Part shown: in pieces, positions 13,831 to 24,994 of the stretch
Position numbering within the stretch: position 1 is the first letter of the stretch
Layout: each line of letters begins with the position of its first letter
Origin: Candidatus Uhrbacteria bacterium
GTDB taxonomy: Bacteria; Patescibacteriota; Patescibacteriia; 2-12-FULL-60-25
Assembly: GCA_008363075.1 (NCBI GenBank)
Contig: RHKK01000008.1
Coordinates: 1 to 51,892, forward strand
Direction: 5' to 3'
DNA length: 51,892 bases
Translations under genes and position numbers: made by a program
The notes under the pieces: model-generated
Database searches by the model: none
Told to the model about the DNA's origin: nothing
What the model saw: the letters and a program-made list of their open reading frames with translations, nothing else

Positions 13831-13909
13831 TGTCGTTGCGAGGAACGGGAGTGACGAAGCAATCTCCGTTTCGCGATCCTGAGATTGCTTCGCTGTGCTC
13901 GCAACGACA
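13831..13909. repeat. REP-like inverted-repeat element, copy 1
   Basis: A complete 79-bp element. A left arm beginning TGTCGTTGCGAGG and ending GAAGCAATCTC is followed by a short loop and an inverted right arm beginning GAGATTGCTTCG and ending CGCAACGACA. It lies between two divergent genes. The same arms occur at 23441, 24434, 24544, 24868 and 24917. Confidence 0.85.
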
Positions 13910-23417: not shown

Positions 23418-23445
23418 ACAAAACCCGCGAACGCGGGTTTTGTCG
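23418..23445 (+). terminator. Terminator of the DUF378 gene
   Basis: Perfect 12-bp stem ACAAAACCCGCG-AA-CGCGGGTTTTGT (23418-23443). Its distal arm supplies a T-tract, and it runs directly into REP arm 2. Confidence 0.85.
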
Positions 23446-23469
23446 TTGCGAGCGGAGCGAAGCAATCTC
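23441..23469. repeat. REP-like single arm, copy 2
   Basis: A solitary short-type arm, TGTCGTTGCGAGCGGAGCG then AAGCAATCTC, abutting the DUF378 terminator without a matching right arm nearby. Confidence 0.8.
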
Positions 23470-24433: not shown

Positions 24434-24510
24434 GTCGTTGCGAACAAAGCGAAGCAATCTCAAAACCCGTCTAATGGGATTGCTTCGTCGCTGCGCTCCT
24501 CGCAACGACA
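24434..24510. repeat. REP-like inverted-repeat element, copy 3
   Basis: Left short arm GTCGTTGCGAACAAAGCG...CAATCTC, loop AAAACCCGTCTAAT, and a right long arm GGGATTGCTTCG...CGCAACGACA. The loop is identical to that of copy 6. Confidence 0.9.
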
Positions 24511-24543: not shown

Positions 24544-24902
24544 TGTCGTTGCGAGCGAAGCGAAGCAATCTCATTCGATGGAATCGGATAGATCCCGCCA
24601 CTTCGGATTGATAGAATCGATTAATTTGATTTTCTTTTGTCGCGATCCCGCCTTGATCTGCTTCTCCCGCTCGATGGCATGAAAAATGTGCGGAAACTTC
24701 TCATCATACACAAGCTTCCAAATTTGATAACGCTTGACGAACTCACTGCCCTTTCCGGCGCGATGCTGTTCCATTCTCTGAATTAAATTCCAAGTAACGC
24801 CGGTATACAGCACCGTGTTGTATGTATTTGTCAGGATGTATACGTAACCCGCTCTCATAAGCATGATGGGATTGCTTCGTCGCTGCGCTCCTCGCAACGA
24901 CA
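24544..24902. mobile_element. REP-like element containing a GIY-YIG gene (copies 4 and 5 as its two arms)
   Basis: The left short arm (24544-24572) and the inverted right long arm (24868-24902) are the same two arm types found in complete elements 3 and 6. Here the 14-nt loop is replaced by a GIY-YIG reading frame that starts just inside the right arm and whose stop codon is formed at the edge of the left arm. I read this as a 359-bp REP-like unit carrying its own nuclease gene. Activity is inference. Confidence 0.65.
24571..24864 (-). CDS. GIY-YIG (URI-type) nuclease family protein
   Basis: A 97-residue single-domain GIY-YIG protein. It has GYVYILTNTYNTVLYTGVTW (the GIY...YIG element reads YVYI...YTG), RMEQHRAGKG with the conserved His region, ...EFVKRYQIWKLVYDEKF, and AIEREKQIKAGSRQKKIKLI with the metal-binding Glu. 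Two starts are possible, ATG 24864 or 24858; the latter gives MRAGYVYI. Reading further upstream would translate the repeat arm itself. The TGA stop overlaps the other repeat arm. Family members nick or cut DNA, so this one may act on the surrounding repeats (inference). Confidence 0.85.
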   Translation of the reverse strand: MLMRAGYVYILTNTYNTVLYTGVTWNLIQRMEQHRAGKGSEFVKRYQIWKLVYDEKFPHIFHAIEREKQIKAGSRQKKIKLIDSINPKWRDLSDSIE

Positions 24903-24916
24903 AACAATATTACCCG

Positions 24917-24994
24917 TGTCGTTGCGAGCGGAGCGAAGCAATCTCAAAACCCGTCTAATGGGATTGCTTCGTCGCTGCGCTCCTCGCAACGACA
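24917..24994. repeat. REP-like inverted-repeat element, copy 6
   Basis: A complete short-arm / loop / long-arm element nearly identical to copy 3 including its loop, 14 bp to the right of the GIY-YIG unit and 39 bp from the murB stop codon. Confidence 0.9.

Follow-up and report, generated by a model that had tools for sequence, protein, structure and literature searches.

Several short palindromic repeats in a Candidatus Uhrbacteria genome enclose only a 14-nt loop, and one copy carries a gene for a small GIY-YIG nuclease where that loop would be. The question this locus raises is whether the gene and its flanking arms form a mobile element, with the nuclease as its engine and the short palindromes as its dependents. 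The DNA analyzed here (the window) is a 51,892-nt stretch of contig RHKK01000008.1, and the genome it belongs to (G000) comprises 1.1 Mb in 25 contigs. Relatives of the nuclease were gathered by protein similarity alone, across 287 same-phylum genomes, 73 loci of many other phyla, and plasmids.

A nuclease gene in place of a loop

The relevant features of the window are as follows.

13832–13908, minus strand: miniature element in the opposite orientation (long arm, 14-nt loop, short arm)
23442–23469, plus strand: solo short arm, from an arm search of the window
24434–24509, plus strand: miniature (presumed non-autonomous) element, 76 bp (short arm, 14-nt loop, long arm)
24545–24901, minus strand: nuclease-bearing (presumed autonomous) element, 357 bp; order on the minus strand is long arm, GIY-YIG gene, short arm
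24545–24572, plus strand: short arm GTCGTTGCGAGCGAAGCGAAGCAATCTC, 3' of the GIY-YIG gene
24571–24864, minus strand: GIY-YIG nuclease P0001, 97 aa; PF01541 (E = 7.2e-14); residues Y9, Y20, G22, R30, H34, E67, and N86
24869–24901, minus strand: long arm GTCGTTGCGAGGAGCGCAGCGACGAAGCAATCC, 5' of the GIY-YIG gene
24918–24993, plus strand: miniature element, 76 bp (short arm, 14-nt loop, long arm)

The first-pass annotation had described the two miniature elements next to the gene and the same pair of arms around it, and we find the arms where it placed them, with exact ends within 1 nt or so of those it gave; the elements at 24434–24509, 24918–24993, and 24545–24901 all run from GTC to GAC. The reading frame lies inside the 357-bp unit in place of the loop, and the relation of gene to arms is also as described—i.e. 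the stop codon (TGA, 24571–24573) shares bases with the inner end of the short arm, and the ATG is about 5 nt inward of the long arm. The third complete element and the solo short arm go beyond that annotation. The window holds three long-arm matches at 0 mismatches and five short-arm matches at ≤2 mismatches, and dinucleotide shuffles yield 0 of either.

P0001 consists of a single Pfam domain, with no NUMOD or other DNA-binding part, and has the residues of the GIY-YIG superfamily (the GIY/YIG tyrosines, Arg, and Glu). Among 28 family proteins, Y20, G22, R30, H34, E67, and N86 are invariant in all 28, and Y9 is nearly invariant. The AF2 model is confident (pLDDT 93.9), and structure comparison of this model places the predicted fold nearest to UPF0213 and Slx1, the latter a repair nuclease that cuts branched DNA. 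Profile searches of NCBIfam and PHROGs with the nuclease return only weak group I intron or homing-endonuclease matches. Between diverged nuclease copies dN is far below dS, and the protein is under purifying selection.

Structure of the arms

Arms in the window have a 4–5 bp stem, GAG...GAA, a variable apex, and a CTC/CCC tail. Their head is YGTC, not GTAG: across 166 arms, the base before GTC is T in 55% and C in 42%, with no conservation farther out. Pairing of the stems is evident from covariation, as 315 of 379 GTCRTNNNGAG heads are then followed by the reverse complement of NNN plus AT, compared with 110 when shuffled, in a count that does not assume pairing. Apex pairs of the long arms also covary (25/38 vs 7 expected). 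As single-stranded DNA, the CCCGC, CCCCGGG, and long arms fold well, and short arms fold weakly (z about +1). Folding energies do not support the idea that the short TTGC and TCCT arms fold stably by themselves, and the claims we make about stems therefore rest on covariation.

Arms flank the nuclease in many phyla

The annotation had proposed a search of related genomes for GIY-YIG genes flanked by such arms, and these turn up in many phyla. Using a generic arm detector (GTC head outward, stem, Y), outward-facing arms are present on both sides of 122 of 251 family copies (49%), compared with 1.9% (54/2836) of shifted control positions taken in the same loci, and at least one outward arm accompanies 216 of 251 copies (86%), compared with 22% (635/2836) of shifted positions. 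The same stem occurs on both sides in 33% of cases vs 0.39% when shifted. After removal of near-duplicates, 107 of 219 copies have both arms and 188 of 219 have at least one, while a stricter detector finds both arms in 43/104 copies, vs 0/2080 shuffles and 5/1642 shifted positions. By the generic detector, no arm accompanies 14% of family copies, and for several there is none in the vicinity (Photobacterium L318; L012). The one Rhizobium phage copy inspected is armless, and phage matches were set aside. The contrary pattern that the annotation had named, orthologues at conserved loci with most relatives armless, was not seen. Conserved synteny was considered as an explanation and rejected.

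Some arrangements are more complex. At G302:C119:4383-4865 and G319:C40:63-508, the nuclease is flanked on either side by at least two nested arms, which would fit insertion of one element into another's loop. A family member in Neisseria gonorrhoeae (L108) lies within a dRS3-like repeat cluster, and the nearest downstream repeat faces the other way.

A sister family of small GIY-YIG proteins (L122–L151), which includes a member in the window's genome (L122, at G000:C23:41568), has no arms: the generic detector finds both arms in 0/30. Instead, 19 of these 30 genes lie 7–112 nt upstream of a same-strand tRNA gene, with the stop codon sometimes in the 5' part of the tRNA and a partial tRNA copy upstream. 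This looks like a separate, tRNA-targeting mobile family.

Each nuclease has its own repeat type

The window's genome encodes three further paralogues of the nuclease, 46–51% identical, and all three adjoin another repeat, ATCCTGAG...GAAGGAT or an ATTCT variant (the repeat is also written YGTCATCCTGAG...GAAGGATC, or its ATTCT variant). Because these paralogues adjoin a different repeat than the window's, each nuclease appears with its own repeat type. The nuclease of the window is closest to TTGC nucleases of deltaproteobacteria and Gottesmanbacteria, not to its own paralogues. Complete TTGC elements in this genome number 12, three in the window and nine elsewhere; all 12 are 69–85 bp long, have one short and one long arm, and are head-to-head dimers with the tags outside. 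Such asymmetry would be expected of an element with distinct left and right ends, and the nuclease-bearing unit is bounded by the same pair.

Arm type is distributed in step with the nuclease phylogeny. When mapped on a tree of 131 labelled nucleases, in which columns are few and single forks weak, the TTGC arm type requires 6 changes vs 40.7 expected, and all arm types together require 34 vs 69.6 expected. Nearest neighbours from different phyla share their arm type in 23 of 44 cases, compared with 8.4 expected.

Repeat number rises with nuclease number

The annotation had also suggested a correlation between nuclease copies and repeat copies, and we find one that is positive and independent of Y1/RAYT. 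The number of GTCATYSYGAG repeat heads increases with nuclease copies (Spearman 0.47, P = 3e-17; reversed-pattern control, −0.01), and the nuclease is present in 50 of 59 repeat-rich genomes vs 38 of 195 repeat-poor ones. In the remaining 9 of the 59 repeat-rich genomes no nuclease was detected, and arm counts are low in some genomes that do carry it. Within the window's own family, G305 has 2 nucleases and 51 TTGC heads, and G320, of the same genus, has 0 and 0. Overall, the distribution is patchy, as the nuclease was found in 102 of 287 same-phylum genomes, with up to 8 copies per genome.

Y1 transposases are present in 137 of the 287 genomes, and the nuclease effect on repeats is strong in both Y1-negative and Y1-positive strata. 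By contrast, no significant Y1 effect is seen within nuclease strata. A PF01797 search finds no Y1 in the window's genome, despite its 49 counted arms.

Insertion polymorphism

Near-identical units occur at unrelated sites. L152 and L153 (both in G173) are 414-bp stretches, 99.5% identical and 4.4 kb apart on one contig, and their flanks are unrelated; the sequence in common begins at TGTC, and its other end falls within ~8–9 nt of GACA. Two further pairs, L158/L159 (94%) and L168/L169 (83%), are likewise units that end at arms within different flanks. Read by eye, L152 and L153 lie in the same neighbourhood and adjoin apparent type IV pilin genes.

The comparison of occupied and empty loci that had been proposed yields both states in Azospirillum, Sphingobium, Shinella, and one CPR genus. 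In A. lipoferum 4B, a block composed of the nuclease and two REP dimers lies between sufB and sufC, while three relatives with flanks 95–97% identical have nothing between these genes. In the Sphingobium fnrL-regulator intergene, 4 aligned plasmids carry the nuclease unit, 2 carry a solo palindrome at the same point, and 2 carry neither. In one occupied Sphingobium strain (L121), the nuclease gene has lost 1 nt and is a dead copy. Sphingobium TYG64/TYG74 (L115–L117 vs L113) have the solo palindrome CGTCACCCCGGGTCAAGCCCGGGGTGACG where relatives have the nuclease unit, and in TYG74 it reads CGTCACGCCGGG...; a deletion between the unit's 8-bp direct repeats would give such a palindrome. Genomes G173 and G213 also differ in the presence of an element.

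None of these comparisons gives a base-exact empty site: the Azospirillum intergene is diverged, as are G173 vs G213/G116 and Shinella H4-D48 (which has no element), and Sphingobium offers the solo palindrome as the alternative state. No target-site duplication is visible at L152/L153, and a clean single junction was not obtained at the compared loci.

Comparison with known systems

The closest described repeats are CGTC-tagged REPs, known from several phyla, with A. lipoferum, S. meliloti, and N. aromaticivorans among their hosts, and grouped in four published families with 8–9 bp stems, 4–5 nt loops, and a CCA-like tail (Di Nocera et al. 2013, PMC3733652). They were concluded to lack a dedicated transposase, and no transposase gene was found flanked by CGTC units; that study does not mention GIY-YIG and leaves the mode of REP movement open (PMC3733652). 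The nuclease arms share with these REPs the YGTC head, AT as first stem pairs, a short tail, and a predominance of head-to-head dimers. Arms around the nuclease in Sphingobium (CGTCACCCCGGGCTTGACCCGGGGTCCC), S. meliloti, Shinella, Rhizobium, Azospirillum, and Novosphingobium aromaticivorans resemble CGTC-tagged REPs, and, read by eye, the alphaproteobacterial arms have the 8–9 bp stem, 4–5 nt loop, and CCA-like tail. In contrast, the arms of the window, with their shorter stem, GAG...GAA, and variable apex, lack those stems and loops. As they differ in stem, loop, and tail, the window arms are relatives of the four published CGTC families, not members.

With REP/RAYT systems (REPtron, REPIN) the elements have in common many non-autonomous palindromic copies, a gene between inverted copies, and cognate repeat types. 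They differ in the enzyme and the tag: an HUH/Y1 tyrosine transposase and GTAG there, a GIY-YIG (Slx1-like) nuclease and YGTC here. The parallel to REP/RAYT with another nuclease family drawn in the first-pass annotation thus holds, and extends to the CGTC-type arms of alphaproteobacteria. UPF0213 and bacterial Slx1-like GIY-YIG proteins (PDB 1zg2, 1ywl) have the same single-domain fold and are the nearest solved structures, but the solved entries state no repeat association. GIY-YIG homing endonucleases of the I-TevI type are likewise selfish nucleases, but the window's nuclease has neither NUMOD nor intron, and its unit ends in inverted hairpins and has non-autonomous copies. MITEs with terminal inverted repeats are also short, non-coding, and inverted at their ends, but here no DDE transposase partner is known and no target-site duplication is visible at L152/L153. 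Within the open-access literature, we found no paper that describes a pairing of GIY-YIG nucleases with palindromic repeats.

A candidate autonomous element

We consider it quite probable that the arms and the Slx1-like nuclease make up an autonomous element of which the palindromes, or REPs, are non-autonomous copies. The 357-bp unit would be bounded by hairpin-forming arms with outward YGTC heads and have the nuclease as its sole gene, and the 69–85 bp palindromes would be derivatives from which the gene is gone, leaving a short arm and a long arm. The nuclease may recognize the hairpin or cruciform form of its cognate arm, with YGTC head, covarying stem, and YC tail; it would nick at the head and cut a recipient site. 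GIY-YIG enzymes do not form a covalent intermediate with DNA, so copying or joining of the element would fall to host replication or repair. That the nuclease cleaves the arms and mobilizes the miniature copies is what we infer from their association and from GIY-YIG biochemistry; of the original proposal, the unit and its association with the nuclease stand as observed, and the role of mobilizer as a candidate one.

A different history is conceivable, in which a free-standing gene of the homing type lands at existing REPs that spread by other means. GIY-YIG enzymes are the classical homing nucleases, nuclease genes do sit in repeat clusters, and the Sphingobium solo palindrome lies exactly where relatives carry the gene. 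However, the gene travels with both arms as a unit bounded by the outer arm ends, arm type tracks the nuclease phylogeny, and the A. lipoferum insert came with its repeats, as three relatives have none there; we therefore regard this history as unlikely. Purifying selection and a predicted fold near that of a repair nuclease would also suit a domesticated host factor with a role in processing or controlling REPs (e.g. by removing cruciforms) and none in mobilizing them, and one source terms the REP-associated TnpA-REP itself a domesticated transposase (PMC8266576). Such a factor is hard to reconcile with multiple diverged copies per genome, patchy occurrence, insertion polymorphism, and identical paralogous units at new sites, which makes this very unlikely.

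Movement of CGTC-type repeats in trans by RAYT/IS200 or other transposases, with the nuclease as a bystander, draws on how common Y1 is in the phylum, but it sits poorly with the many arms of a genome that lacks Y1, with a nuclease effect that persists within Y1 strata where Y1 has no significant effect within nuclease strata, and with the absence of transposase genes between CGTC units (PMC3733652); its probability is very small indeed. Chance or an assembly artefact as the source of arms and gene has practically no probability, since shuffling gives an expectation of 0 and independent finished sequences, complete plasmids, and many phyla agree.

Implications

Given an autonomous element of this kind, the nuclease is the strongest candidate for the engine that CGTC-type repeats were thought to lack. 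More broadly, and with only a modest leaning in favor, these elements may be a new class of transposable element, spread over many phyla and moved by a stand-alone GIY-YIG nuclease through cleavage of the element's own terminal hairpins, with CGTC-type repeats in general as the non-autonomous copies. With a candidate that is specific, conserved, 97 aa long, and easily expressed, the question of how REPs move becomes testable. If true, this would add a transposition chemistry without a covalent protein–DNA intermediate, and would explain many small genes currently labelled 'GIY-YIG nuclease' or 'excinuclease ABC subunit C'.
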